Shown here: in pieces, positions 1,958 through 44,935 of the stretch
Layout of the letters: each line of letters opens with the position of its first letter
Numbering within the stretch: position 1 is the first letter of the stretch
DNA from: a virus
Reading direction: 5' to 3' (one strand)
Length of the DNA stretch: 64,000 nucleotides
IMG/VR virus record: IMGVR_UViG_3300023110_000034
Location: 1 to 64,000 of that record
Made by a program: the position numbers and the translations under genes
Notes under the pieces: model-generated
The model's input: the letters and a program-made list of their open reading frames with translations, nothing else
What the model was told of the DNA's origin: nothing
Database searches by the model: none

Positions 1958-2689
1958 TTATAGAAAATCAACCACTTGCGCAGGATCTACATTATCTATT
2001 AATTTATTAATTGCGTCACGCTTTATCTGCGAAATTCGCACATAAGCCGCGGTTCCATCAATCTTCAATTTATCAGCTATTTCTTTAGCTGACATTTTAT
2101 CACAATCTAAACCGTAGCTCATTCTAAGCACATCGTATTCTTTTATATTAAGGTGTGCTTCCATTATACTTAATAGATATTTATTCATAATATCTATGTT
2201 GTACTCTTTTGTTTTGTCTTCAACTTGAACAAATTTATCTACATCATCATCAATACTAGAAAATATACTATTAAAAAATACTTCAATAGTTCTTTTTTCT
2301 TGCTCAGAATTTTTACGCATATCATTTAATTTATGCTCAGGTATTCTGATATTACCTCTGTTAATATCAATAGCTCTGCGTATTGCACCCTTAATGCGTT
2401 TAGATAGAAATGATTTTAGTGTTCTTTCAGGTTCTGTTGAATCTGTTATAACATCCCAATCAATTTTATCTACTGCATGTATTAATCCTATTGCACCCTC
2501 TTGAATTAGATCATTTATAGTTAACACACCAGATGCTTGCTGTGTTGTGGAAAATTTCCTTGCTATATTTTCAACTAATTCCATGTTTTCTACTATAATT
2601 TTTTCTCTATCATCAGAAATATCTCTTAACAATGTTCTGTCAAGGTCATGCTTGTATCGTACATAATTTTGTACATTATATTTCTTCAT
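1958..2689 (-). CDS. RNA polymerase sigma factor (sigma-70 family)
   Basis: A 243-residue sigma factor. Region 2 is visible as E-N-M-E-L-V-E-N-I-A-R-K-F followed by I-N-D-L-I-Q-E-G-A-I-G-L-I-H-A-V-D-K (about residues 55-80), the core-polymerase-binding and -10-recognition part. A second block, S-F-L-S-K-R-I-K-G-A-I-R-R-A, matches the end of region 2 and start of region 3. The C-terminal helix-turn-helix, M-S-A-K-E-I-A-D-K-L then A-Y-V-R-I-S-Q-I-K-R-D-A, is region 4, which would read the -35 box. It presumably redirects host RNA polymerase to phage promoters. The repeated element upstream of several early genes here is one candidate target; late promoters are the other. It overlaps the next gene by 14 bases. 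Confidence 0.87.
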   Translation of the reverse strand: MKKYNVQNYVRYKHDLDRTLLRDISDDREKIIVENMELVENIARKFSTTQQASGVLTINDLIQEGAIGLIHAVDKIDWDVITDSTEPERTLKSFLSKRIKGAIRRAIDINRGNIRIPEHKLNDMRKNSEQEKRTIEVFFNSIFSSIDDDVDKFVQVEDKTKEYNIDIMNKYLLSIMEAHLNIKEYDVLRMSYGLDCDKMSAKEIADKLKIDGTAAYVRISQIKRDAINKLIDNVDPAQVVDFL

Positions 2690-3293
2690 TTAGTAAAAGT
2701 TTTTCTTGTCTTATCTCATTTGTTATGTTTCTATATATCGTTCTGGTTGATACATTTAAAGCCTTAGCTATATTTGATATTGTGATTTTTTTATTGTTAT
2801 CGTGAATATACAACATTGTTTCGTAAATATCATCAGGTTCGGCTAATTTTTTTTTGCCAATGAGTTTTCCGACTATACTTAACTTCTGTGAAGTATCTAA
2901 TCCAGTAACTTCTTTGAATATGATTTTACGCATTTTATTTTTAGGTGGTGCGTCTAAATCACTTTCAAATACTTCTTGTACTAAATTTTGTATTGAAGCT
3001 TTACTAAGCGTAATGGTTGCAAAACCATTTTCTTTATCAGCAATAAATTCAGCTAATTCTGTAATCTGATCGTATTCTAATCTAGGATTAAGATACCATA
3101 GAACGAGCATGTGCCATTTAAATGACTTATAAGACGTTATTTTAGCCTTACTTCTAAATAACTCGTAACACTCGTACGTACCACTCTCATAAAAGTCACC
3201 CCAGCTGTATGATTCAGAAGGGGTGTCAGTAATTGGTCCGCGTCGATATACGATGCGTCTTCGATGAAAATAGTCGAGTTTTCTATGCGACAT
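2676..3293 (-). CDS. Putative transcriptional regulator with C-terminal helix-turn-helix
   Basis: A 205-residue protein whose last 50 residues form a clear helix-turn-helix: I-T-I-S-N-I-A-K-A-L-N-V-S-T-R-T-I-Y-R-N-I, resembling resolvase-like or sigma region-4-like DNA readers. The first 35 residues are very basic and aromatic (RKLDYFHRRRIVYRR); the middle is helical with no motif I recognise. The gene overlaps the sigma factor and is transcribed ahead of it, so the two may act together. A phage transcription regulator or sigma accessory factor is a reasonable inference; a replication-initiation role cannot be excluded. Confidence 0.6.
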   Translation of the reverse strand: MSHRKLDYFHRRRIVYRRGPITDTPSESYSWGDFYESGTYECYELFRSKAKITSYKSFKWHMLVLWYLNPRLEYDQITELAEFIADKENGFATITLSKASIQNLVQEVFESDLDAPPKNKMRKIIFKEVTGLDTSQKLSIVGKLIGKKKLAEPDDIYETMLYIHDNNKKITISNIAKALNVSTRTIYRNITNEIRQEKLLLNEEI

Positions 3294-3314
3294 TAGCCTG
3301 CTACTTATTTAATT

Positions 3315-3419
3315 TTATTTGCTATCGTCACACTCTGGTCCGATGATTTCATAAAGGATTTCTAAATCTTCTAGTTCGGCTGGTGTGATGTGGTTTAATT
3401 GGTCTTTTGTTGCTCCCAT
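3315..3419 (-). CDS. Tiny acidic protein, 34 residues
   Basis: The frame starts MGATKDQLNHITPAELEDLE and ends in an acidic CDDSK tail. It fills the gap between two leftward genes, and its start overlaps the stop of the 67-residue gene upstream by one base, the packing used throughout this strand. Predicted as one acidic helix. No family recognised. Confidence 0.45.
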   Translation of the reverse strand: MGATKDQLNHITPAELEDLEILYEIIGPECDDSK

Positions 3420-4546: not shown

Positions 4547-4951
4547 TTATTTAATTAAAAATTTATTTATTTTAGTTTCTAAAGCTTCAATTCTATTTAA
4601 TACTTGATCAAATGTCATATCAGCATATTCTTCACGGCCCGGTTTAATATAATAAATATCAAGGTGTTTGGCTATGCTATCATATACGTCATGCATATAT
4701 GGGTCATAACGAGCCTCAATATCAAATCTTTTAAGGCCATTAATTACGGTCGCATGATCACGATTAACAAGTCTACCTATTTTAGATAAGCTTGCATACC
4801 TGCAGTATTTTCTAGCTAATTTAAAATATATAAAGCGTGCTTGTGACATTTCACGTGTACGATCTTTAATTGATATATCTTCAAGATCTAATTCTTTTTG
4901 TACCATACGCAAGACTTTTTCAGGTCTAGCAATCTTTTCTTTTGTTTCCAT
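4547..4951 (-). CDS. Stand-alone DnaA domain IV (DnaA-box-binding) protein
   Basis: A 134-residue protein whose residues 10-78 read as the C-terminal DNA-binding domain of DnaA. The visible signature is R-x-M-S-Q-A-R-F-I-x-F-x-L-A-R-K-Y then S-L-S-K-I-G-R-L-V-N-R64-D65-H66-A-T-V-I, equivalent to the DnaA signature '...GRDHxTV'. There is no AAA+ ATPase domain, so it cannot assemble an initiation complex alone. It could bind DnaA-box-like sites (TTATCCACA-type) at the phage origin, block host initiation, or act as a transcription regulator. A predicted coiled coil (residues 110-134) may dimerise it. The TTATCC core inside the repeated upstream element in this region is a possible target (inference). 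Confidence 0.85.
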   Translation of the reverse strand: METKEKIARPEKVLRMVQKELDLEDISIKDRTREMSQARFIYFKLARKYCRYASLSKIGRLVNRDHATVINGLKRFDIEARYDPYMHDVYDSIAKHLDIYYIKPGREEYADMTFDQVLNRIEALETKINKFLIK

Positions 4952-5542: not shown

Positions 5543-5565
5543 AGGTATTTGATTTAAAATTAATA

Positions 5566-5880
5566 ATATTGCCAGCTTTATTCGGCGCTGGCTACCTAGC
5601 CTTCTTAACCGTTCCGGCTACGTCTGCCCAAGAGGGCATTGACAAACACACATAAAATGTGGTACAGAGGAGGAGGTACATGACCCTCGCTTCAACTCGA
5701 GTATCTATTTACCCGTCGGTAATCCTCTGTAGCTTTTAATATTTTTATGATGGCGTCCCTTGTGCGGGTTCTTCAGGTAGCTAATCCTTATCCTCACCGA
5801 AGCCAACGGGGTAGAGGACCATCATAAATGTTATGCTTCTCTGGACAATGCCTTGCCACGCGGTTCTCATAACATTTTTG
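5566..5880. ncRNA. Candidate structured RNA, about 315 nt, no coding frame
   Basis: No convincing gene lies here, and the stretch is visibly richer in G+C than its flanks. Long perfect inverted repeats stand out: GCCAGC 5571-5576 with 5587-5592; TGCCC 5625-5629 with 5634-5638; CACAT 5649-5653 with 5657-5661; a 9-bp stem 5663-5671 with 5723-5731; a 10-bp stem 5744-5753 with 5819-5828; and AATGTTATG 5827-5835 with 5868-5876. Smaller hairpins sit inside the big stems, for example TTACC/GGTAA near 5709-5722. Read rightward, the last hairpin is followed by five T, like a terminator. Read leftward, with the neighbouring genes, it becomes a long leader of the gene at 5300-5542. It is not a tRNA, and I see no RNase P or tmRNA signature. 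The class is unknown to me. Confidence 0.7.
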
Positions 5881-6028: not shown

Positions 6029-6259
6029 TTATTTAGTTTGTGTTGTTATAATTTCTTTTTCGTTTTCAAGCTTATTAATTACGCTATGTAATTTTACTGT
6101 GATATAGTCTACAATATCTTGTACATCAAAGCCGTCATTCCATACAGTTGGTACAAACTTTTCAAGATAGTATCTTGTGTCCCAATCAGCATTAGTTAAT
6201 TTTTCAATGCGATCAATTTTGTTTTGTAAGTCTAAATAATTTTCTAATTGTGTGTTCAT
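6029..6259 (-). CDS. Small acidic unknown protein, 76 residues
   Basis: Mostly helical and acidic (MNTQLENYLDLQNKIDRIEK...), with a central aromatic stretch (DTRYYLEKFVPTVWNDGFDV). It is the first gene downstream of the promoter-like element at 6293-6325, whose TATTATC end lies about 34 bases before its ATG. This arrangement suggests its own transcription start. Function unknown. Confidence 0.55.
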   Translation of the reverse strand: MNTQLENYLDLQNKIDRIEKLTNADWDTRYYLEKFVPTVWNDGFDVQDIVDYITVKLHSVINKLENEKEIITTQTK

Positions 6260-6292
6260 AATATTTAATTTTAATTGTTTGTTATTCGTTAT

Positions 6293-6325
6293 TATTATCT
6301 GTTATGCTTCGTGTTTACTTTGTAA
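6293..6325 (-). promoter_or_regulatory. Promoter-like repeat copy 1 (upstream of 6029-6259)
   Basis: On the plus strand: TATTATCT, eight variable bases, TCGTGTTTA, three bases, TGTAA. Read leftward this is TTACA, N3, TAAACACGA, N8, then an A/T-rich ATAATA, placed just before a small gene. It overlaps the last codons of the gene at 6302-6625. It is one of six copies with identical spacing. Confidence 0.6.
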
Positions 6326-6625
6326 TTCTTCTTCAAGATAGTTTTCAACTTCATACTCTGGTAAGTATTGTTCAAGATCGCTTACATATACGATAGCATC
6401 TTCGTCCAAATCTTTAATGCGTTCAATAATATCATCAAATGGTGGTTGATAATAATAAACATCCATATCCCATTGCATATGTATATGGTCATTAGTCATA
6501 ACGTGTACGTCATAGCTGTCTGCAGTCATATACTCACTAATTTGTAAATCTGCACTTGGTGTATAGTCTTCTGTAAATTTAGCTATGTTTAAAGCTTTTG
6601 CTAGTTGTGTGTAAATATTTGTCAT
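6302..6625 (-). CDS. Acidic unknown early protein, 107 residues
   Basis: A strongly acidic protein, with clusters such as D-L-D-E-D and E-V-E-N-Y-L-E-E-E-L, and a methionine/histidine-rich middle (V-H-V-M-T-N-D-H-I-H-M-Q-W-D-M-D-V). Highly acidic small phage proteins sometimes mimic DNA, but no homology supports that here. A promoter-like element for the next gene is embedded in its 3' end. Its ATG overlaps the stop of the 59-residue gene upstream in the ATGA manner. Confidence 0.6.
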   Translation of the reverse strand: MTNIYTQLAKALNIAKFTEDYTPSADLQISEYMTADSYDVHVMTNDHIHMQWDMDVYYYQPPFDDIIERIKDLDEDAIVYVSDLEQYLPEYEVENYLEEELQSKHEA

Positions 6626-6801
6626 TTTGTTACTCTTTTAATTAATGTAAATAATATTTGTTGTTTAACTTTTAATTCTAATTCGTTAAAGTCATCGCCT
6701 TCAAGTTCTTCTTCGTCAAGTTGCCAGTGTATTGTATTGTCAATGTATTCGTCAATAACTTCGATACAGTGATCAGCCATTTGTTGTACTATTGTGTTCA
6801 T
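6622..6801 (-). CDS. Small acidic protein, 59 residues
   Basis: The frame starts MNTIVQQMADHCIEVIDEYI, contains an E/D-rich middle (Q-L-D-E-E-E-L-E-G-D-D) and ends in a basic helix. It overlaps by four bases at both ends, typical of this operon. Function unknown. Confidence 0.55.
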   Translation of the reverse strand: MNTIVQQMADHCIEVIDEYIDNTIHWQLDEEELEGDDFNELELKVKQQILFTLIKRVTK

Positions 6802-6998
6802 GCTATTTCAAGATTAAGTTGTTGTGCTACGTAGTTGATATGTTTCGACGTCGTTGGACTGTGCGACCCGACGCCGGGAACATACCAATTCACCAAATGA
6901 AGTTTGTTATCTTTTATTTGTGCAACAACAGTGTCATAAGAATAAATATCGTTGCCAACCATTTTTAAGTTTTGTTTGTATCTGTCAAATGTTTTCAT
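6798..6998 (-). CDS. Small conserved phage-type protein with TTSKHINYVA motif
   Basis: The 66 residues include D-I-Y-S-Y-D-T-V-V-A-Q-I and, at the C-terminus, T-T-S-K-H-I-N-Y-V-A-Q-Q-L. I recall this combination from small proteins of marine cyanophages and other phages, of unknown function. A few residues between the two motifs (V-P-G-V-G-S-H-S-P) look like an insertion, and the DNA there (about 6845-6885) is locally GC-rich. The gene follows the promoter-like copy at 7025-7057, whose near end is about 27 bases from its ATG. Confidence 0.6.
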   Translation of the reverse strand: MKTFDRYKQNLKMVGNDIYSYDTVVAQIKDNKLHLVNWYVPGVGSHSPTTSKHINYVAQQLNLEIA

Positions 6999-7013
6999 AA
7001 TTGTGTTTGTTTG

Positions 7014-7250
7014 TTATTTGTTAGTATTATCCGTTTGTTGTCGTATTAACTCTGTAATTTGTTTTTCAGTTTCTTTAATATTATATGACTGAAAGACTAT
7101 ACCACCACCGTAACTTTTTGTGTGGTATTTACGGCCACCGATTTTGTTTGCCAAGTGTATAGCATTTTGATAGTCGTCTGCAATATTTAAAAAATGCACT
7201 ACATATCTTGGATTGCCATATGTGTCGTTTTTAATTCTTGTAAATTCCAT
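7014..7250 (-). CDS. Small conserved phage-type protein (GGRKYHTKSYGGGIVFQSYN)
   Basis: A 78-residue protein with the pattern T-R-I-K-N-D-x-x-G-N-P-R-Y-V-x-H-F-L-N and, later, G-G-R-K-x-H-x-K-x-Y-G-G-G-I-V-F-Q-S-Y-N. I associate this with a small uncharacterised family in phages and bacteria. The glycine-rich turn and conserved basic residues look like a compact beta fold. Its 3' end contains the promoter-like copy for the next gene. Function unknown. Confidence 0.65.
   Translation of the reverse strand: MEFTRIKNDTYGNPRYVVHFLNIADDYQNAIHLANKIGGRKYHTKSYGGGIVFQSYNIKETEKQITELIRQQTDNTNK
7025..7057 (-). promoter_or_regulatory. Promoter-like repeat copy 2 (upstream of 6798-6998)
   Basis: Plus-strand reading: TATTATCC, eight bases, TCGTATTAA, three bases, TGTAA. 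Same spacing as the other copies. It lies within the last codons of 7014-7250 and about 27 bases ahead of the next start codon. Confidence 0.6.
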
Positions 7251-7342
7251 TATGATAATTCAGTTAAAATTAATGTTACACCGGTTAAGAACAGACCTAA
7301 TAGAAAGCCTGTGTCGAGGTTTTGTAGTTCAAATAGTTCCAT
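7250..7342 (-). CDS. Tiny single-pass membrane peptide, 30 residues
   Basis: The frame MELFELQNLDTGFLLGLFLT continues with a hydrophobic G-V-T-L-I-L and ends E-L-S. It predicts one short membrane helix with acidic ends. It overlaps the next gene by one base. Such peptides are easily missed; a role in the host membrane is possible but unsupported. Confidence 0.45.
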   Translation of the reverse strand: MELFELQNLDTGFLLGLFLTGVTLILTELS

Positions 7343-7346
7343 AATA

Positions 7347-7493
7347 TTATAATTTTATTTCGTCTTCTGGTTTGTATTCGTGTTTGTTTCTAGGTGGTGT
7401 TGGGTTCAGTGTTGGAGGAGAATATTTATATCCAAGTATTGGATTGATTCCGTGATTCCAAAAATCCCAAGGCATTTCTTTTTTAGTATCCAT
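7347..7493 (-). CDS. Small proline-rich protein, 48 residues
   Basis: The start chosen is the internal ATG at 7493 (MDTKKEMPWDFWNHGINPIL). A longer 68-codon reading from 7553 would overlap the upstream gene by 71 bases. The chosen start overlaps it by 11. The C-terminal half is proline-rich and basic/acidic (S-P-P-T-L-N-P-T-P-P). Function unknown. Confidence 0.5.
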   Translation of the reverse strand: MDTKKEMPWDFWNHGINPILGYKYSPPTLNPTPPRNKHEYKPEDEIKL

Positions 7494-7671
7494 ATTTAGT
7501 ATAATGTTTAATTGTTTCAGCTGATGCTTTATTGAATTGGTGTACTCGTTCACGATACTTTGGATCGGTACAATATTTTCTCATTGCTCGGGATTCTGTA
7601 CATTCACCCCAGCGACGTTCAAAGTCGTCAACTTGTTTTAGTTTTGCTTTTAGTTGTGCTTCTGTTTTCAT
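7483..7671 (-). CDS. Small basic unknown protein, 62 residues
   Basis: A basic helical protein (MKTEAQLKAKLKQVDDFERR...) with two cysteines. The phrase R-A-M-R-K-Y-C-T-D-P-K-Y-R-E-R-V-H-Q-F-N is not one I can place. Overlaps neighbours slightly on both sides. Confidence 0.5.
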   Translation of the reverse strand: MKTEAQLKAKLKQVDDFERRWGECTESRAMRKYCTDPKYRERVHQFNKASAETIKHYTKYGY

Positions 7672-7781
7672 TTTAATGTCATTGTTATTAGCTCAAATTC
7701 ATCGTTTGTTATTGTACCTTCCATTAAGGCTAGAAATTCTTTTGAGACGTCTCGTCCTGTGTATTTGTTTATTATTGTCAT
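7668..7781 (-). CDS. Tiny unknown protein, 37 residues
   Basis: The frame starts MTIINKYTGRDVSKEFLALM and overlaps the downstream start by four bases. It lies one base from the upstream stop. Supported by packing only. Confidence 0.45.
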   Translation of the reverse strand: MTIINKYTGRDVSKEFLALMEGTITNDEFELITMTLK

Positions 7782-7782
7782 A

Positions 7783-7923
7783 TTAGTTATTTATTAAATA
7801 TTCTTTTGTTTCATCATAGCTCAGTGGCCAATCGTAGTATTTGTATATTCTGTAAATCTTTTCTTCTGTTGGTAGGTCAAGCGTGTTAACCCAGTCCATT
7901 AAATTTGTGTGTGATGTGTTCAT
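7783..7923 (-). CDS. Tiny unknown protein, 46 residues
   Basis: The frame starts MNTSHTNLMDWVNTLDLPTE and has an aromatic middle (I-Y-R-I-Y-K-Y-Y-D-W-P-L-S-Y-D-E). It overlaps the upstream gene's stop by four bases. Function unknown. Confidence 0.5.
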   Translation of the reverse strand: MNTSHTNLMDWVNTLDLPTEEKIYRIYKYYDWPLSYDETKEYLINN

Positions 7924-8111
7924 ATTATATAATCTTTTTTAATTTTTTTTATTAATTCAAATCGTTGGTCAAGTAACTGTTGGTGTATAGCAAGCAATTG
8001 CTCTTGTTGGTCTAGTGATAATCCTAAGCCTTGTATTTTTAGGTCTTGTATCATATCTAGTTTACCATTTATTTCGTGTAGCCTTGTTATTTGATTTTCT
8101 TGTGTTATCAT
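7920..8111 (-). CDS. Small coiled-coil protein, 63 residues
   Basis: Nearly all helix, with heptad-like leucine/isoleucine spacing (I-T-R-L-H-E-I-N-G-K-L-D-M-I-Q-D-L-K) and a glutamine-rich second helix. Probably a two-helix coiled coil. Starts and ends overlap neighbouring genes by four bases. Confidence 0.55.
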   Translation of the reverse strand: MITQENQITRLHEINGKLDMIQDLKIQGLGLSLDQQEQLLAIHQQLLDQRFELIKKIKKDYII

Positions 8112-8299
8112 AGTCCTACAAATTTATTTATTATTTCTAATTCTGTTTTATATTCTTTTTCTTGGTCAGGGCTGAGATTATATAATCTATCAACATTATT
8201 TTTTGTTTTAACATAGTCAACTAATGTGAAGTATATTTTATCAATTTGTTGTTGTGTTAATTCTACTTTTGTGTATGTGTCTACTAAATGTTGTTTCAT
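8108..8299 (-). CDS. Small helical unknown protein, 63 residues
   Basis: The ATG at 8299 (MKQHLVDTYTKVELTQQQID) is preferred over the one at 8320. The promoter-like copy at 8324-8356 ends so close that transcription would be expected to start near or after 8320. The protein is helical with no motif known to me. Confidence 0.5.
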   Translation of the reverse strand: MKQHLVDTYTKVELTQQQIDKIYFTLVDYVKTKNNVDRLYNLSPDQEKEYKTELEIINKFVGL

Positions 8300-8323
8300 T
8301 GTGTTTGTTTTTATGTTCATTTA

Positions 8324-8356
8324 TATTATCCGTTTGTGATCGTATTAAGCTTGTAG
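8324..8356 (-). promoter_or_regulatory. Promoter-like repeat copy 3 (upstream of 8108-8299)
   Basis: Plus-strand reading: TATTATCC, eight bases, TCGTATTAA, then GCTTGTAG. The right part overlaps the last codons of 8345-8533, as copies 1 and 2 overlap the gene before them. Confidence 0.6.
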
Positions 8357-8533
8357 TTTGACATGAGAGTAATATACTTTTGTTGTGTCTATGTAGTCGT
8401 ACAGTGGTCGACGTGAGAATGTTACTCTGGTTGTACTCTTCATTGGTCGTACATAGTTAGCCATAAGGTCTTGAGTACGTTTGTTTTGTCTCTCAATTTT
8501 CTTTTTCAATTTGTTGTATGCTTCAGTAGTCAT
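8345..8533 (-). CDS. Small basic unknown protein, 62 residues
   Basis: Very basic (MTTEAYNKLKKKIERQNKRT...), with a predicted N-terminal helix and a beta-like C-terminus. A weak, degenerate resemblance to the repeated upstream element lies near 8555-8590 but lacks the TATTATCC core, so I do not call a promoter. Function unknown. Confidence 0.5.
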   Translation of the reverse strand: MTTEAYNKLKKKIERQNKRTQDLMANYVRPMKSTTRVTFSRRPLYDYIDTTKVYYSHVKLQA

Positions 8534-8601
8534 AAGGTGTGTGTTTTATTTGTTAATGTTTTATTGTTTACTGGTATTAAACTAAGCCTTTGTGTGTGTT
8601 T

Positions 8602-8772
8602 TTACCATTTTTCAATAGGATTTTCAGTTATATTTTCAAATTTAGTTAACAATTTATCAATTTTAGCTTTAGCTTGTGGACTGAATCGATCGAAGTCAGG
8701 GTTGTTGATGAGGTCTTCGAGTGCCATCCAAATTATTTCAGTTTCAAAGGGAGTAAGTTGTGTAGTTACCAT
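8602..8772 (-). CDS. Small unknown protein, 56 residues
   Basis: The frame starts MVTTQLTPFETEIIWMALED and is helical throughout, with the phrase N-N-P-D-F-D-R-F-S-P-Q-A-K-A-K-I-D-K-L. It is preceded, at about 27 bases, by promoter-like copy 4 (8799-8831). Function unknown. Confidence 0.55.
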   Translation of the reverse strand: MVTTQLTPFETEIIWMALEDLINNPDFDRFSPQAKAKIDKLLTKFENITENPIEKW

Positions 8773-8798
8773 GTGTTTGTATTTTTAATGTTCTTATA

Positions 8799-8831
8799 TA
8801 TTATCCAATTGAGATCGTGTTTAGTTTGTAA
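8799..8831 (-). promoter_or_regulatory. Promoter-like repeat copy 4 (upstream of 8602-8772)
   Basis: Plus-strand reading: TATTATCC, eight bases, TCGTGTTTA, three bases, TGTAA. It fits between two small genes, ending exactly where the stop codon of 8832-8948 begins. Confidence 0.6.
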
Positions 8832-8948
8832 TTATTCTTGATCCCACCACTCATTATTGTAATAGTTTACAACATCTTGATTTGTACAAAGATTGTTATT
8901 AATTAACTCTTTAATTTGTTTTGTGGTAAGGTTGTCAAAGTTGTACAT
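8832..8948 (-). CDS. Tiny unknown protein, 38 residues, first gene of the leftward module
   Basis: The frame starts MYNFDNLTTKQIKELINNNL and ends with an acidic aromatic tail (N-N-E-W-W-D-Q-E). As the first gene leftward of the divergent region, behind copies 5 and 6 of the repeated element, it is likely to be among the earliest transcribed. Function unknown. Confidence 0.55.
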   Translation of the reverse strand: MYNFDNLTTKQIKELINNNLCTNQDVVNYYNNEWWDQE

Positions 8949-8973
8949 TGTATTTGTTTTTTTGTTACATATA

Positions 8974-9006
8974 TATTATCCAAATTGGTTCGTGTTAACT
9001 TTGTAA
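8974..9006 (-). promoter_or_regulatory. Promoter-like repeat copy 5 (upstream of 8832-8948)
   Basis: Plus-strand reading: TATTATCC, eight bases, TCGTGTTAA, three bases, TGTAA. About 26 bases separate its near end from the ATG at 8948. This copy matches the consensus best. Confidence 0.62.
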
Positions 9007-9052
9007 AAACTAAAATATTAATATTGTAAAATGTACGATCAGAGCCTAACTA

Positions 9053-9085
9053 TATTATCCAAAATAGTTCGTATTTACCACGTAA
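9053..9085 (-). promoter_or_regulatory. Promoter-like repeat copy 6, in the divergent region
   Basis: Plus-strand reading: TATTATCC, eight bases, TCGTATTTA, three bases, CGTAA. No gene starts directly behind it; copy 5 lies 47 bases further left. It may be a tandem promoter for the leftward operon or a regulator site. Confidence 0.55.
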
Positions 9086-9175
9086 AACCTCAACATTAAA
9101 AGCTAAAAACATAACTGCTTGGCACTGAGCGCGTTGGGGGCTGGGGTAAAATAATTGGTTTTAGTTAAAGGGCTG

Positions 9176-9258
9176 GTTACCAGATAGTTACGTGTAATAC
9201 GTTACCTCTAATTATCTAACAAAAAATTTAGGTTACCTACCGGGGTGCATTTGTTACC
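9176..9258 (+). repeat. Four direct GTTACC repeats (iteron-like)
   Basis: GTTACC occurs at 9176-9181, 9201-9206, 9232-9237 and 9253-9258, at intervals of 25, 31 and 21 bases. Two copies carry an extra 5' G. The clustering in the only long non-coding gap suggests sites for a regulator or replication protein. The spacing is irregular, so chance is not excluded. Confidence 0.4.
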
Positions 9259-9268
9259 GCAAGAAAGT

Positions 9269-9296
9269 GTGACAATAGGTACTTAATATATATAAT
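9269..9296 (+). promoter_or_regulatory. Possible rightward promoter for the radical SAM gene
   Basis: GTGACA at 9269-9274 and TATAAT at 9291-9296 are 16 bases apart, a sigma-70-like arrangement, 75 bases before the ATG at 9371. Bacteroidota housekeeping promoters usually look different (TTTG and TAnnTTTG), so this is tentative. Confidence 0.3.
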
Positions 9297-9370
9297 GTAG
9301 GGGGCTAACGTCGCACTGTGTGTCAGATTTAAAATAAGCATGTAATAGTATATATGTTAATTAAATTCAT

Positions 9371-10297
9371 ATGGAGGTATCACAGATACGTTATGCGCAA
9401 ATAGACCCTAATGGTTTATGCAATGCAGGATGTTGGTTTTGTCCTGTAGCGTATATAGGTAATCCGAAGGAATCAATTAATCAAATGGAACCATCAGATT
9501 TCCGCAATATAATACAACAAATAGATTATTACAAAGGAGATATTGTTTCACCTGAATTTAATGGTATATATACATCCCATTATAATGAAGCATTGTTATA
9601 TAGGTATTTTGAAGAAATGCTAGAAACATTGCGTGAATTTAGTCTAGGGATGGTTGTATTAACTAATGGTACAACATTAACGCCGGATAAAGTGGATATA
9701 ATAAATAAATATCCAGATGTAATATGGGGAGTATGTGTAAATGCGCCAATATGGTCAGATGCAGAGTTATTTGCAAAACGCACTAATATGAACCAAAGCA
9801 TATTTGAACGTTTAAAAATGAATGTGTCGTATGCTTATACCAATCTTAAAAATAAAAATTTATTATCTATACAGATTAATGGGCATGATCATGAGTCAGG
9901 GGCACTTAAAGGTCCTAAGTTTCCAGACATATCAGATACAGAATTAGATGAACAGGTAGCTATTGCTAAAGAAATGTTTCCAAATACTAATGTATTTAAA
10001 CAACCGCACCTTATAGATAGGGCCGGCCTTATAGACGATTATATAAGTTCATCGCCTTTTGTGCATAAAGATAAAAAAGTTGTTGGGTGTATGGGCAAAA
10101 GAGATACGGAATGGATACATGTAAATGCAAACTCTGAATTATTCCTATGCTGCAATGATTATCATATGGAACATAAATATGCTAATCTTAAAGAAACAAC
10201 ATTAAAAAATGCTTGGGGCAGTATAAAACATAAAGAAGTATTACAACATGCTTGGGGTACAATATGCAATTCTTGTACTTCTGCTATATATGAATAA
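9371..10297 (+). CDS. Radical SAM enzyme with SPASM-like C-terminal domain
   Basis: A 308-residue protein. C17-x3-C21-x2-C24 near the N-terminus (N-G-L-C-N-A-G-C-W-F-C) is the radical SAM iron-sulfur motif, which binds S-adenosylmethionine and makes a 5'-deoxyadenosyl radical. The C-terminal part has C240, C260-C261-N-D, a following N-L-K-E and C299-x2-C302, the layout of SPASM domains that hold one or two further clusters and often modify peptides or complex substrates. It is the first rightward gene after the divergent region, alone between 423 and 134 bases of non-coding DNA, and so is probably separately controlled. No obvious precursor peptide lies beside it. Phage-borne radical SAM/SPASM proteins exist in environmental data, but their substrates are mostly unknown. 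The fold call is firm; the reaction is unknown. Confidence 0.85.
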   Translation: MEVSQIRYAQIDPNGLCNAGCWFCPVAYIGNPKESINQMEPSDFRNIIQQIDYYKGDIVSPEFNGIYTSHYNEALLYRYFEEMLETLREFSLGMVVLTNGTTLTPDKVDIINKYPDVIWGVCVNAPIWSDAELFAKRTNMNQSIFERLKMNVSYAYTNLKNKNLLSIQINGHDHESGALKGPKFPDISDTELDEQVAIAKEMFPNTNVFKQPHLIDRAGLIDDYISSSPFVHKDKKVVGCMGKRDTEWIHVNANSELFLCCNDYHMEHKYANLKETTLKNAWGSIKHKEVLQHAWGTICNSCTSAIYE

Positions 10298-15477: not shown

Positions 15478-17043
15478 ATGGAATTTAATAATCCGAGTGA
15501 AATTGTTAAAGATTTAAACTTTGGCGATGACGCTCAAAACAAAATAATGGCTGGAGTTGAAAAGCTCGCTGAAGCTGTTTCATCAACTCTAGGAGCATCG
15601 GGTAAATGTGTTATATATGAAGACGCACTTGGTAAACCGATTGTAACAAAAGACGGAGTGACTGTTGCGAATAGTGTGGTGCTTATGGATCCAGTTGAGA
15701 ACATAGGCGCGACCCTCGTTAAAGAGGCAGCACAAAAAACAGTAAAGGAAGCGGGTGATGGTACTACAACTAGTACCGTCCTCGCACACTCCATTTTAAA
15801 AGAATATGTAGCTTCTAAAAAATCTGATTTAAGAAAAATTAAAGAAGATATAATTGAAGCAAGTTCTAAAGTAATTAAATATTTAGAAAGTAGCTCAATC
15901 CCGGTTAAGGACTCGATGCTAGAGCATGTAGCTAATATTTCTACAAACAATGATGTAATATTAGGTAAATTAATTGCTGATGCGTATAACAAAGTGGGTA
16001 AAGATGGCGTGGTCCTTATGGAAGAGTCTGATACTGATGAAACGTTTATAGATATTATAGATGGTGTTCAGTTTGACAGTGGTTTAAAATCACAGCATTT
16101 AATTACAGATAAAGAAAAAAATAAAGCAGAACTTGAAAAACCGTTAATATTATTAGTTGATTCTGAAATTTCAACTATTAGAAAGATACAAGCGGTATTG
16201 GAATATGCTATAAAAAATAAAAGATCAATACTTATTATTGGTAATCTTTCACCTCAAGTGCAATCTGCACTTATAATGAATAAGGTTAAAGGTAATATTA
16301 AAGTAAACTTTATTGATCCACCTGGTTTTTCTAACTTAAGAAGAGATATGCTAGATGACTTAGCCGCACTTACGGGTGCTACAGTCATTTCAGAGGAGTT
16401 AGGAGACGATTTAGATTTAATTAATGAATCAGTACTAGGTGAAGCACAAAAGTCCGTTACGGATGATAATAACACTGTTATAACTATTGAAGAGTTAACT
16501 AAAGAAGTTAAAGATAGAATAGATGTTATTGAAAAGCAATTAAAGGAAGAAAAAAATCCTTATTTGCTTAAAAAGCTTGAACAGCGTAAAGCAATGCTTT
16601 CTGGTTCAGTCGGAATGTTATATGTAGGCGCTGATTCTAAAATAGCACTTAAAGAAAAAAAAGATAGGGTTGAAGATGCTATTTATGCTGTAAAAGCAGC
16701 ATTAAAAGATGGTATTGTACCTGGTGCTGGTGTGGCTTTGCACAATGCGGCTGATAACATAGCTACAAACAACAGTGATGGTTATAACATACTGTTTAAC
16801 GCTATTAAAGCACCTTATAAGAAAATTCTTGATAATGCTGGAATTCCTTATGAAACTGTTGTAAAAAAAGGTAGAGGAATTAATGTAATTAGCGGGAAAA
16901 CTGTTAATCTTGTAAAAGAAGGTATAATTGATCCTGTGCTGGTTACAAAAACTGCTTTAAGAAATGCAGTATCTGTAGCAACAACAATTATGTCAGCGGA
17001 CTGTATAATTTCTAATGTAAGAGAAGGATCATGCGGGCTGTAA
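15478..17043 (+). CDS. groEL: Phage-encoded GroEL (Hsp60) chaperonin
   Basis: A 521-residue group I chaperonin, slightly shorter than the 548 of E. coli. Equatorial ATP-site residues are present: K-D59-G-V-T, G-D94-G-T-T-T-S, and the later V-E-D-A-I-Y-A-V-K-A-A-L...G-I-V-P-G-A-G-V-A-L, containing the hydrolytic Asp equivalent. The apical domain is recognisable but divergent. The C-terminal Gly-Gly-Met tail is missing; the protein ends in a serine/cysteine-containing stretch. It forms barrel-like rings that fold proteins with ATP and a GroES lid. The phage GroES starts 13 bases before its stop, so the pair is coupled. Phages with their own GroEL are uncommon and likely use it for large virion proteins. 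ATPase residues suggest an active enzyme. Confidence 0.95.
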   Translation: MEFNNPSEIVKDLNFGDDAQNKIMAGVEKLAEAVSSTLGASGKCVIYEDALGKPIVTKDGVTVANSVVLMDPVENIGATLVKEAAQKTVKEAGDGTTTSTVLAHSILKEYVASKKSDLRKIKEDIIEASSKVIKYLESSSIPVKDSMLEHVANISTNNDVILGKLIADAYNKVGKDGVVLMEESDTDETFIDIIDGVQFDSGLKSQHLITDKEKNKAELEKPLILLVDSEISTIRKIQAVLEYAIKNKRSILIIGNLSPQVQSALIMNKVKGNIKVNFIDPPGFSNLRRDMLDDLAALTGATVISEELGDDLDLINESVLGEAQKSVTDDNNTVITIEELTKEVKDRIDVIEKQLKEEKNPYLLKKLEQRKAMLSGSVGMLYVGADSKIALKEKKDRVEDAIYAVKAALKDGIVPGAGVALHNAADNIATNNSDGYNILFNAIKAPYKKILDNAGIPYETVVKKGRGINVISGKTVNLVKEGIIDPVLVTKTALRNAVSVATTIMSADCIISNVREGSCGL

Positions 17044-40915: not shown

Positions 40916-43900
40916 ATGCCAGAAATTAAGCATGTATTTACCTCAGGTCGAATGAATAAAGACCTGGATGAAAGAGCTATACCTAATAACGAGTATAGAG
41001 ATGCTTTAAATGTTCAGGTATCAACTTCTGATGGAAGTGATGTTGGTGCATTACAGAATATATCTGGTAATCAGCAAATATCATTATTAACTGAAGAAGG
41101 GGCAAAAGTAATAGGCTCAGTAAGAGATACTGAAAATAATAGAATATATTGGTTTGTAGCTAGTAATGCTAAAAGTTTAATTGTTGAATATAATGAAGAA
41201 ACTAATTTAGCTTACCCTGTATTAGTTGACGTACACAATATTTTAAAGTTTAGTGAAAACTATTTAATTACTGGCGCTAATATAATTGATGGTTTATTGT
41301 TTTTTACAGATAATCAAACTGAGCCTAAAAAAATAAACATAGAAAAGTTTAAAGCTGGGACACCTAATTTTAATGATCATTCACAATTATATAATAGACG
41401 TTTTGCTGAAGCTGATATTACTGTTATAAAGAAAAAACCAAATAATGCACCTAAAATTGTACTTTATGATACAGTAGGTAGTGATAATATACAATCAAGT
41501 ACATTTTTTAATTTTTCAAAAAATAATGGGGCTGATCCAGTAGAAGTTGGGGAGTCATATACAGTTAACTTGTTAAATTCTAATTTAGACTGGAATATTG
41601 GCGATATATTAGTTTTTGAATATGAGCAAAACTCAGGTCAATTTAGTACAAACTGGGATCCCATAAAAATAAAAGGATTAATTACTTCATATAATAAAGG
41701 AACTACAGTAACTGTTGAAATTGTAACAGCCACTGATAATTTTGCAAATGAGGCAGCCCAATATAGTATAACTATTGAACAGCCAAACCCTTTATTTGAA
41801 TTAAAATTTCCAAGATTTGCATATAGATGGAAATATGAAGATGGTGAATACTCTGTGTTTTCACCTTTTTCAGAAGTAGCATTTTTACCAGGTGAAATAA
41901 AATACAACGCCAAAGATGGGTATAATGAAGGAATGCTCAATACTGTTAGAAAAATAAATTTATATTCTTTTGATACTCCTCCTGATAATGTTGAAGAAGT
42001 AGAGATATTATATAAAGAATCAAATAATAATAACATATATACTATTGAATCTTTAAAAAAAGAAGATTTAAATAGTTACGATATTAAGTCTGAAATTATA
42101 TATAAAGTAGTTGAAAATAATCAATTGCTTAGAGCATGGGATAATGTGCCTAAAAAAGCAAAAGCACAAGAAATTACAGCAAATAGATTAATGTTTGGTA
42201 ATTATACTCAAGGGTATAATATAGAAACAGAGCCAAATATTTCTGTTAAAATTAAATCAAAAAATGATTCTGGTGCTTCTGTAAAATCTGACCGTACATA
42301 TCAAATAGGTACAGTATTTGAGGATATATATGGTAGACAATCACCTGTTATTGCAAATCAATCTGGTGTTATTAAGTTAGACAGAGCGGCTTCAGATAAA
42401 AAAAATAGTATTACAGTTACTGGTATTGACACACCCCCTAGCTGGGCATCAAAGTTTAAATACTATGTAAAAGAAACATCTGCTCCATACTATAATGTAT
42501 TAGTAGATAAATATTATAGAAACAAAGAAGAGCCAAATTCTATATGGTTTTCTTTGCCTTCATCAGAACGTAATAAAGTTACAGAAGATACTTATTTAAT
42601 ATTAAAGAAACAGCATGGCGCGGATATTGCGGTAGATGATACTACAACAAAATATAAAATATTAGATATTGATAATGAAGCACCTAATTTTTTAACAGAT
42701 AAATTTAAAAATAAAGGGCAAATTAAATTAACTAGTATCACTACTAATTTAATATCTAACTCTAGTTTACTGCAAGCTAATATAGAACCAAATGAAACAT
42801 TAGAAGCTACATTAGCCGCGGGGTCTAAAATAAAATTAGTAAATTCAAGCGGGACTAAAAGCGATATTTATACTGTATCAAACGTAACTTTTGATGATAC
42901 TAATAATGATGATAAATCTGATACAATTTCTTTAACTATAAATGAAGTATTTAATGAAAGTGATATAAATGTTTTTGGTTCTGAAACAAGTTATAATATT
43001 GTTTTTGGTGAAATTGAAACCAAAGTTTCTCCAGAATTTAAAAATAGATTTTTTATAAAATTACGTATTGATTCTTTATTAAAAGAAAATATTATAGGGG
43101 TTGAATCTATTAAAACAGAAAATCAAAGTGAACATACAATTGTTGCTGGGATGACATTAATAGGTGATACATATACAAATATAAACCCAGATTGTACGGG
43201 GAGAAGAACAGACGAAAATTCTGGTTATTATTGGCCCGGTCCTGGAGATCCAAGCGTTACACCAATACAAGTAGGAAGTAATAAAATTTATATTAGAAGA
43301 ACAGGGCAAGAATTTAAAGATAAAAATAGTGTTTTTGATGATAACAAATTAAAAATAGGAAAAAGTTCTTTTAAATTTTCAGAGGCATTAGATACTATAG
43401 ACGCAAAAATTAGATTTGAGGACGATCCAAATTTAGAAACATATACTATAAAATCATCTACTAGAACTGATGGTTATCATTTTAGAGGCAGAGAAGAGGA
43501 AAGAATATGTAATTATTATGTTCAATGGGAAATAACACTTGATAAAAATATTGATTTTACAGCTAATACAACTTCTCAAAATAAAAGAATATATTTTTTA
43601 GAAAGTAATTTTAATGAAGAAGAAAATCAGTTATCTGTAAATTCACCAATAATATTTGAAACAGAACCGGAAGAGGTTGCTGATTTAGATTTATATTATG
43701 AAACTGAAGAGTCTTATGATATTGGACAATGGTTTTATGAAAAAGAATTAAGATGGTTTAATTGTTTTTCTTTTGGTAATGGTGTTGAATCTGATAGAAT
43801 ACGTGATGATTTTAATGGCATTACTATGGGCAAAGGGGTTCGTGTTAGCTCTGTAATTGCAGAACAGTTTAAAGAGGAACAAAAGAAAAATACTATTATA

Positions 43901-44935
43901 TTTTCGGGTATATATAACAGTATAAATGGTATAAATCAAACTAATCAGTTTAATCAAGCTGAAGCTATAACAAAAGATATTAATCCAGAATATGGATCAA
44001 TACAGAAGCTGCATGCTAGAGAGGGTGATTTAATTGCTTTGACTGAAGATAAAGTTTTAGGTATATCAGCTGGGAAAGATGTTTTATTTAATGCCGATGG
44101 AAACCCCAACTTAATATCTTCTACAAATGTATTAGGCTACGTAAGACCTTACGCTGGAAATTTTGGTATATCTAAAAATCCAGAGTCATTTGCTGAATAT
44201 GGTAATAGATTCTATTTTACTGACAAAGCTAGAAATGCTGTATTAAGATTTTCAGGAGGTATAGGAGGAGGTGATGGATTAACAGTCATATCTAATTATG
44301 GTATGTCTGATTATTTCAAAGATTTATTATCCTCAAATTCCGGTGCGTTTATTGGTAGCTTTGATGAAGATCTTGGTACATATAATATATCAATAGCGGA
44401 TCAAACTGTTGGCTTTGACGAAATGGTAAAAGGTTGGACTTCAAGATATAGCTATATACCAGAAAATGGTATTAGTTTAAATGCTAAATATTATACATTT
44501 AAAAATGGTAATTTATGGCTTCATAATGTAGAGAGCCGATCAAAAAATAATTTTTACAATATTCAATATTCATCTAAAGTTACTTTCTTTTTTAATGAAG
44601 ATTCATCAGTTATTAAAAAGTTTAAAACTTTAGGTTATGAAGGAGATAGTAATTGGGTAGCTAATTATATAAAAACAAATTTACAAGATGGTTCAGTAAC
44701 AAAATTTATTGATAAAGAAGGTAAGTTTTTTAATTATATAAAAGGTGATAAAACTTATTTAGATATTCCAGGCAGAGAAGATAATTGGGATAGTAAACAA
44801 TTTTCAAGTCAAGGAATTGGTAATGTAACTACATTAGCAGGTGATACAACAATAACAGAGGTAAGAATGGATGTTTATATAGTTGGAACAGTAGTAGAAT
44901 GGAAGGGTGATACATATGAATGTGTACAAACATAA
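40916..44935 (+). CDS. Tail stabilisation/hub protein, 1339 residues
   Basis: The N-terminus reads F-T-S-G-R-M-N-K-D-L-D-E-R-A-I-P-N-N-E-Y-R-D-A-L-N-V-Q-V-S-T-S-D-G-S-D-V-G-A. This is close to the conserved start of the large stabilisation protein of crAss-like and other marine podoviruses, which forms part of the tail tube and anchors fibers. The rest is rich in beta strands and propeller-like repeats. The C-terminus ends W-K-G-D-T-Y-E-C-V-Q-T, and the appendage protein at 45962 has E-W-L-G-D-T-Y-E-C-C. That may be a shared attachment or folding motif. Confidence 0.8.
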   Translation: MPEIKHVFTSGRMNKDLDERAIPNNEYRDALNVQVSTSDGSDVGALQNISGNQQISLLTEEGAKVIGSVRDTENNRIYWFVASNAKSLIVEYNEETNLAYPVLVDVHNILKFSENYLITGANIIDGLLFFTDNQTEPKKINIEKFKAGTPNFNDHSQLYNRRFAEADITVIKKKPNNAPKIVLYDTVGSDNIQSSTFFNFSKNNGADPVEVGESYTVNLLNSNLDWNIGDILVFEYEQNSGQFSTNWDPIKIKGLITSYNKGTTVTVEIVTATDNFANEAAQYSITIEQPNPLFELKFPRFAYRWKYEDGEYSVFSPFSEVAFLPGEIKYNAKDGYNEGMLNTVRKINLYSFDTPPDNVEEVEILYKESNNNNIYTIESLKKEDLNSYDIKSEIIYKVVENNQLLRAWDNVPKKAKAQEITANRLMFGNYTQGYNIETEPNISVKIKSKNDSGASVKSDRTYQIGTVFEDIYGRQSPVIANQSGVIKLDRAASDKKNSITVTGIDTPPSWASKFKYYVKETSAPYYNVLVDKYYRNKEEPNSIWFSLPSSERNKVTEDTYLILKKQHGADIAVDDTTTKYKILDIDNEAPNFLTDKFKNKGQIKLTSITTNLISNSSLLQANIEPNETLEATLAAGSKIKLVNSSGTKSDIYTVSNVTFDDTNNDDKSDTISLTINEVFNESDINVFGSETSYNIVFGEIETKVSPEFKNRFFIKLRIDSLLKENIIGVESIKTENQSEHTIVAGMTLIGDTYTNINPDCTGRRTDENSGYYWPGPGDPSVTPIQVGSNKIYIRRTGQEFKDKNSVFDDNKLKIGKSSFKFSEALDTIDAKIRFEDDPNLETYTIKSSTRTDGYHFRGREEERICNYYVQWEITLDKNIDFTANTTSQNKRIYFLESNFNEEENQLSVNSPIIFETEPEEVADLDLYYETEESYDIGQWFYEKELRWFNCFSFGNGVESDRIRDDFNGITMGKGVRVSSVIAEQFKEEQKKNTIIFSGIYNSINGINQTNQFNQAEAITKDINPEYGSIQKLHAREGDLIALTEDKVLGISAGKDVLFNADGNPNLISSTNVLGYVRPYAGNFGISKNPESFAEYGNRFYFTDKARNAVLRFSGGIGGGDGLTVISNYGMSDYFKDLLSSNSGAFIGSFDEDLGTYNISIADQTVGFDEMVKGWTSRYSYIPENGISLNAKYYTFKNGNLWLHNVESRSKNNFYNIQYSSKVTFFFNEDSSVIKKFKTLGYEGDSNWVANYIKTNLQDGSVTKFIDKEGKFFNYIKGDKTYLDIPGREDNWDSKQFSSQGIGNVTTLAGDTTITEVRMDVYIVGTVVEWKGDTYECVQT

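Follow-up and report, generated by a model that had tools for sequence, protein, structure and literature searches.

The stretch analyzed here comprises positions 1 to 64,000 of the linear, 66,302-base viral record IMGVR_UViG_3300023110_000034 and is referred to below as the window. Between 6287 and 9085 it carries six copies of a bipartite DNA element, named here by their positions 6293, 7025, 8324, 8799, 8974 and 9053, and it encodes a sigma-70-family factor at 1958-2689. The pattern proposed in a first-pass annotation, which had reported six copies in a single orientation, has exactly these six matches with 0 mismatches. No further match occurs in the window at ≤3 mismatches, and 100 dinucleotide shuffles of the window gave, at the same threshold, a mean of 0.04 matches and a maximum of 1. 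When the window was scored with a weight matrix, the six copies reached 28.8-45.9 bits and everything else, on both strands, ≤8; the remaining part of the record holds no additional copy. The functional strand is the minus strand, on which the element reads YTACRnnnTWAAYACGA-N8-RGATAATA, also written TTACAAAC-TWAAYACGA-N9-GATAATA. Past GATAATA, the conserved part continues as an AT-rich stretch, in which the base six positions downstream is a purine.

Five of the six copies precede a small gene on the minus strand, with 24-33 nt between the edge of the element and the ATG and 19-28 nt between the predicted transcription start (+1) and the ATG. Element 6293 (6287-6325; GATAAT at 6299-6294, predicted +1 at G6287) is followed by a leader of 28 nt to the ATG at 6259 of a 76-aa gene (6029-6259). 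Element 7025 (7019-7057; GATAAT at 7031-7026, predicted +1 at A7019), which sits within the 3' end of an open reading frame (ORF) at 7014-7250, has a 21-nt leader to the ATG at 6998 of a 66-aa gene (6798-6998). Element 8324 (8318-8356; predicted +1 at G8318) overlaps the stop of the preceding ORF (8345-8533) and lies 19 nt from the ATG at 8299 of a 63-aa gene (8108-8299); the mechanically called start of this gene, 8320, falls inside the promoter, so that 8299 is the likely start. Element 8799 (8793-8831; predicted +1 at G8793) has a 21-nt leader to the ATG at 8772 of a 56-aa gene (8602-8772), and the stop of the preceding 38-aa gene lies just upstream of it. That 38-aa gene (8832-8948) is led by both remaining copies: element 8974 (8968-9006; predicted +1 at G8968), with a leader of 20 nt to the ATG at 8948, and element 9053 (9047-9085; predicted +1 at A9047), the lowest-scoring copy at 28.8 bits, which has no ORF of its own. 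Element 9053 forms a tandem pair with 8974, from which it lies 79 bp upstream, and relatives likewise have tandem pairs, at 77-80 bp. The description of the copies as serving individual tiny genes fits five of the six; every copy stands at the front of a mini-operon that comprises a single gene or several.

Relatives were sampled as 80 viral contigs, each of which encodes a protein related to the phage sigma factor. The motif search in related genomes that the first-pass annotation had recommended bore out its proposal: the core TWAAYACGA-N9-GATAAT occurred 163 times on the same strand as the sigma gene, 0 times on the opposite strand and 0 times in a reversed control. A logo built from 308 unique sites extends the motif to TTACAAAC-TWAAYACGA-N9-GATAATATAAAT, then a purine. 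When the two blocks were scored independently at spacings of 2-23, 364 sense matches fell at N9, none at N8 or N10 and a handful at other spacings, with none antisense. Copies with ≤1 mismatch were present in 45 of 48 sigma-bearing records searched as whole contigs, always on one strand per record. Copies on both strands were seen in L033, L064 and L116, three of the contigs originally identified through the motif; in each, one copy faces the opposite way near the first copy. Most copies lie 2-9 kb upstream of the sigma gene (352 of 368 are upstream), and a minority lie 0.8-2.8 kb downstream. The upstream block has drifted in the lineages of L178 and L199, which carry TTACAAACAAAATA... and TTCGAATTATAATACGA..., respectively; GATAATA is kept in both at an unchanged distance. 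A literature search, whose coverage excluded most subscription journals, found no paper describing this motif.

The position of start codons relative to the element was compiled for 683 unique copies. Of these, 111 (16%) have an ATG placed precisely at core position 30, with a frame open for at least 30 codons in 106, and the corresponding counts at positions 27, 29 and 31 are 0, 1 and 6. ATGs at position 28 (198 copies) lie within the consensus AAATG and are the first open start in only 24. A second, broad class of start codons peaks about 20 nt beyond position 30. The simplest reading is that transcription starts at core position 30 and that the resulting mRNAs would be leaderless in about one-sixth of copies. 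With +1 at position 30, GATAAT falls at -12 to -7, the proper place for the -10 element of a sigma-70-family promoter. The site would then consist of a first block, TTACAAACTWAAYACGA, at -38 to -22, nine variable bases, a second block, GATAATA, at -12 to -6, and a purine at +1, followed either directly by the ATG or by an A-rich leader of about 20 nt. Random placement in relatives, which the first-pass annotation had named as evidence against its idea, was not seen: a start codon lies within 60 nt of 84% of copies, compared to 32% of random positions. The overlap with the end of the previous gene, noted earlier for several copies in the window, proved general, as 459 of 683 copies contain or adjoin the end of the open frame before them, mostly at an internal TAA. 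The TAA inside TAAAyACGA or gaTAAta is often the stop of the preceding frame.

On the grounds of its fixed position and strand relative to small ORFs, its rigid N9 spacing, a start site that can be placed from leaderless genes and its recurrence in dozens of phages, we regard the element as almost certainly a promoter, as had been suggested from the window alone. An operator, recombination site or processing signal repeated before genes would likewise show fixed spacing, which alone fits any protein site, and the copies do split the region into cassettes. Such a signal without promoter function is nevertheless extremely unlikely, given that the strand always matches the downstream gene, that there is a -10-like hexamer with a purine at +1 and, in 16% of copies, an ATG exactly there, and that the conserved core is not palindromic.

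Mapping of 5' ends in Flavobacterium psychrophilum defined the promoter box TAnnTTTG at -12 to -5, in addition to sigma-54, TAnnTTGY and extracytoplasmic function (ECF)-type classes, and the element is not among the six motif classes derived there from transcription start sites (PMC9723704). When copies of the element were compared with TAnnTTTG at -12 to -5, 668 of 683 matched two of the six fixed positions and none matched more than three; the element thus lacks the box of a Bacteroidota sigma-A promoter. It shares with Bacteroidota primary sigma promoters (TTG / TAnnTTTG) the A at -11, the T at -7 and A-rich leaders without a Shine-Dalgarno sequence, and differs from them in its fixed G-12, A-8 and A-6, where they have T, T and T, and in its extra upstream block. 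A scan for E. coli-type sigma-70 sites returned 55, compared to 64 expected, an uninformative result. The earlier statement that the element differs from both the sigma-70 and the Bacteroidota pattern stands for TAnnTTTG, although GATAAT differs from TATAAT by a single base. A likeness to the T7 promoter (TAATACGA) was considered and rejected, since the distance to +1 is wrong for it and no polymerase turned up among the proteins scanned.

The phage sigma factor (243 aa; 1958-2689, minus strand) is the candidate reader of the element. It matches Pfam Sigma70_r2 and r4 and PHROG 351, a profile search of PDB aligned it over 25-237 with sigma factors including A. aeolicus FliA, and the helices of its AlphaFold2 model are ordered sigma2/3/4. 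Immediately upstream, and overlapping it, is a gene (2676-3293, minus strand) for a 205-aa protein with a helix-turn-helix (HTH) domain, HTH_11, at residues 163-190, a candidate co-activator or regulator. In 74 of 80 loci, an HTH gene precedes the sigma gene, in most cases as its direct neighbor and often overlapping it. The C-terminal HTH in the model of this protein resembles TetR/MntR-type HTHs; alignment with HTH regulators is confined to the last 60 residues of the protein (Z at most 6.5), and a Foldseek search of PDB folds returned nothing at E below 0.3. No cultured phage with a close relative of this sigma factor or HTH protein was found. Two contigs, G054 and G070 (contigs of L013 and L060), each carry two copies of the sigma gene, far apart, which could be terminal repeats, true paralogs or the product of mixed assemblies.

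A second element, a conserved 50-bp palindrome of the form TGTGACRATAGCCTnTTAA..AGTAACAGGCTAATGTCACA, also written TGTGACRATAGCC...GGCTAATGTCACA, is common to the start of the HTH gene and the divergent region 9086-9370. One copy (3285-3333, minus strand) overlaps the start codon of the HTH-sigma operon. The other (9267-9316, plus strand) belongs to the divergent region that controls early and late genes and precedes the first rightward gene by 54 bp. Among 81 sequences, 63 contain the palindrome, in 111 copies with an arm spacing of 23-27 and with 0 matches in a reversed control. It is found at the start codon in 60 of 74 HTH genes, and most of the remaining copies are located at the divide between early and late genes, upstream of the early region. 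The palindrome is likely to act as an operator or promoter of the HTH-sigma operon and the rightward genes. A relationship between the upstream block of the promoter element and a palindrome arm was rejected; their best alignment is in the natural register, and the similarity is not significant (p 0.20-0.26).

The first-pass annotation had named the phage sigma factor or host polymerase as possible readers, and co-occurrence favors a phage-encoded factor. Of 48 contigs bearing the motif, 35 also have the sigma gene, among them all those of 60 kb or more, and the 13 contigs without it all end 43-3972 bp downstream of the last element, where the sigma gene would lie. Six cultured or complete structural relatives, chosen by common capsid or portal proteins (Maribacter phage Panino, elemoE, phi38:1, Calle_1, phi18:3 and a Manatee Spring contig), have no sigma gene and no motif within 1 mismatch. 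The motif is thus found with the sigma factor and is absent without it, within one lineage in which the events are not independent. The early regions of four sigma-less relatives contain 11 host-type TTG-N18..22-TAnnTTTG sites compared to 3.4 expected, and those of seven phages of this group contain 1 compared to 2.3 expected, all of these being small numbers. Neither a polymerase-like DxDxD context nor a PHROG or Pfam polymerase, as expected of a phage RNA polymerase, was seen among the scanned proteins, which covered a subset of ORFs. In our judgment, the element is probably read by host core polymerase with a phage-encoded specificity, namely the sigma factor, perhaps together with the adjacent HTH protein. 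That the specificity is phage-encoded in the wider sense, which includes a phage activator acting without the sigma factor, appears likely from the comparisons made here.

Several observations weigh against this preference. The co-occurrence lies within one phage lineage and could be explained by shared ancestry, and covariation of the motif with the sigma, HTH, ERF and PDDEXK proteins (partial Mantel, columns) gave signals that are not specific. Genes led by the element look early, and the known phage sigma factors cited below serve middle or late genes; the sigma gene, moreover, lies downstream of the elements that it would read, so that something else must start the cycle. A few sigma-bearing contigs (L148, L162) have no recognizable copy, their early region being short or cut. 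Finally, near-perfect copies precede host genes on rare chromosomes that lack this sigma factor.

Among 397 Flavobacteriaceae genomes searched with a sequence-only covariance model, 2 have clear copies on the chromosome, phage-like contigs and weak matches apart. Copies of 30-38 bits stand before ORFs in G100 (two), G102, G098 (two) and a Polaribacter bin, and the phage sigma factor is absent from all four; most host copies stand in front of genes for secreted proteins that are about 120 aa long and belong to no Pfam family. One of the G100 copies is on contig 2, at about 160149. Bacterial chromosomes with near-perfect copies are L255, L256, L257, L258, L259, L260 and L272. In G100, G102 and Polaribacter, some of the genes behind these copies seem to break off shortly after the signal peptide, and no cultured-phage relatives of the host gene were found. 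A general regulon in Flavobacteriaceae was rejected as an explanation, because matches to the 2-mismatch pattern about equal the control, as was a family of small secreted host genes, because the motif occurs in only some of its members. The host copies match too well for chance, and there are too few of them for a regulon common among hosts. Unless the genes respond to infection, no other observation argues more strongly that the element can be read by some host holoenzyme.

It is accordingly possible, though we consider it unlikely, that the element is a strong early promoter read straight after infection by host polymerase with a primary or alternative host sigma factor, and that the phage sigma factor serves other promoters, such as those at the palindromes that precede the late genes and the HTH-sigma operon. 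Besides the chromosomal copies, such host reading would suit an element that opens a region of tiny variable genes, the tandem pair at the front of that region and a -10 hexamer one base off TATAAT. It is at odds with the lack of a host TAnnTTTG box, with the approximately 395 of 397 Flavobacteriaceae genomes that have no chromosomal match, and with a complete intolerance of altered spacing that is unlike a primary sigma factor. Sigma-less phages of the same host family, furthermore, do not use the element and are, on small numbers, enriched in host-type sites. A further reading accommodates the host copies differently: the sigma factor and its operon partner, the HTH protein, would recognize one block each and define a promoter class of their own throughout a large lineage of uncultured marine Bacteroidota phages; a few host lineages would have copied it onto chromosomal genes, which would then fire only on infection by such a phage. 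We regard this combination as improbable.

The length of the upstream block raises the question of an activator. T4 middle promoters also combine a conserved block at about -30 with a -10 hexamer, and their MotA box measures approximately 9-10 bp with a spacing of 12 ± 1 (PMC2988021), compared to 17 bp and an invariant spacing here. A MotA box (TGCTT core) at 12 ± 1 bp from the -10 is not present in the element, and no relative of MotA or AsiA was identified among the subset of proteins scanned against family libraries. In a comparable arrangement, a phage activator, either the HTH protein or another early protein, would bind at -38 to -22 and recruit the host sigma-A holoenzyme to the -10, with no role for the phage sigma factor. 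A conserved block of 17 bp does exceed the usual reach of sigma region 4, it is this block that drifts between lineages while GATAATA stays fixed (L178, L199), and the highest partial Mantel value belongs to the HTH protein, albeit in a test whose signals are not specific. We find this scheme quite improbable, since the -10 differs from the host box at -12, -8, -6 and -5 and the spacing is stricter than that of MotA; the palindrome at the start of the HTH gene is a more obvious HTH site, and the block does not resemble its arm significantly (p 0.20-0.26).

Phage sigma factors that direct transcription are known from phiEco32 (gp36) and 7-11 (gp47), where they serve middle and late promoters, and in phiEco32-like phages, such promoters upstream of the sigma gene give positive feedback (PMC8948821, PMC4331800). 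The phage studied here resembles phiEco32 and 7-11 in that it encodes its own sigma-70-family factor, would use host core polymerase, has several promoters of one class and carries the sigma gene downstream of them. It differs in that the promoters of those phages are middle or late and have the single-element form tAATGTAtA or GTAAtg-16-aCTA, whereas here a 17-bp block, N9 and GATAATA stand before small early-side genes in phages of Bacteroidota. There is also a partial likeness to the sigma-28 system, as most of the phage sigma factor can be aligned with A. aeolicus FliA. The sigma-28 promoter consensus contains a GATAA core in its -10, as does the element. Unlike sigma-28 promoters, the element has no conserved GCC before GATAA and no in-register TAAA at -35, and the 308-site logo accordingly shows neither the GCCGATAA -10 nor the TAAA -35 of FliA promoters.

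Returning to the reading that we favor, the phage sigma factor would melt the -10 (GATAAT), and recognition of the upstream block, which is unusually long, would fall to region 4 of this factor, either by itself or aided by the HTH protein; the adjacency of the HTH gene to the sigma gene (74 of 80 loci) makes a sigma-plus-activator pair plausible for a block of 17 bp. The first molecules of sigma factor would have to be supplied either by the virion or by a promoter that the host reads, possibly located at the palindrome in front of the HTH gene. As the sigma gene lies downstream of the elements and in the same direction, the elements would then feed back on sigma supply. Copies scattered through a region of variable small genes would give each gene or mini-operon its own start.

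Other features of the window were noted. Within the early operon, on the minus strand, a non-coding gap of 338 nt (5543-5880) is a candidate structured RNA; it folds better than shuffles (z -2.2), and parts of it are 81-99% conserved in five relatives. A search of the window against Rfam gave no match, this gap included, and a tRNA search of the window found none. The early operon also encodes a small protein with a DnaA C-terminal HTH domain (Bac_DnaA_C; 4547-4951). The first rightward gene (9371-10297) encodes a radical SAM/SPASM protein, of which the 80 sigma-bearing loci contain no relatives. The window also encodes a GroEL (15478-17043) and a virion protein (40916-44935) whose C-terminal domain is of the crAss-type muzzle kind, suggesting kinship with crAss-like tail machinery.

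Promoters read by phage sigma factors are of a known kind; this one is new in sequence, rigidity, host phylum and gene class. No transcription data for this phage group were found, and the element provides base-precise predicted start sites for a promoter class of widespread uncultured marine Bacteroidota phages. The class makes their early gene sets annotatable and ties these sets to a specific sigma/HTH pair, and it offers a testable case of a phage sigma factor apparently serving small early-side genes. If the phage sigma factor proves sufficient, so rigid a promoter could be used as an orthogonal expression signal.

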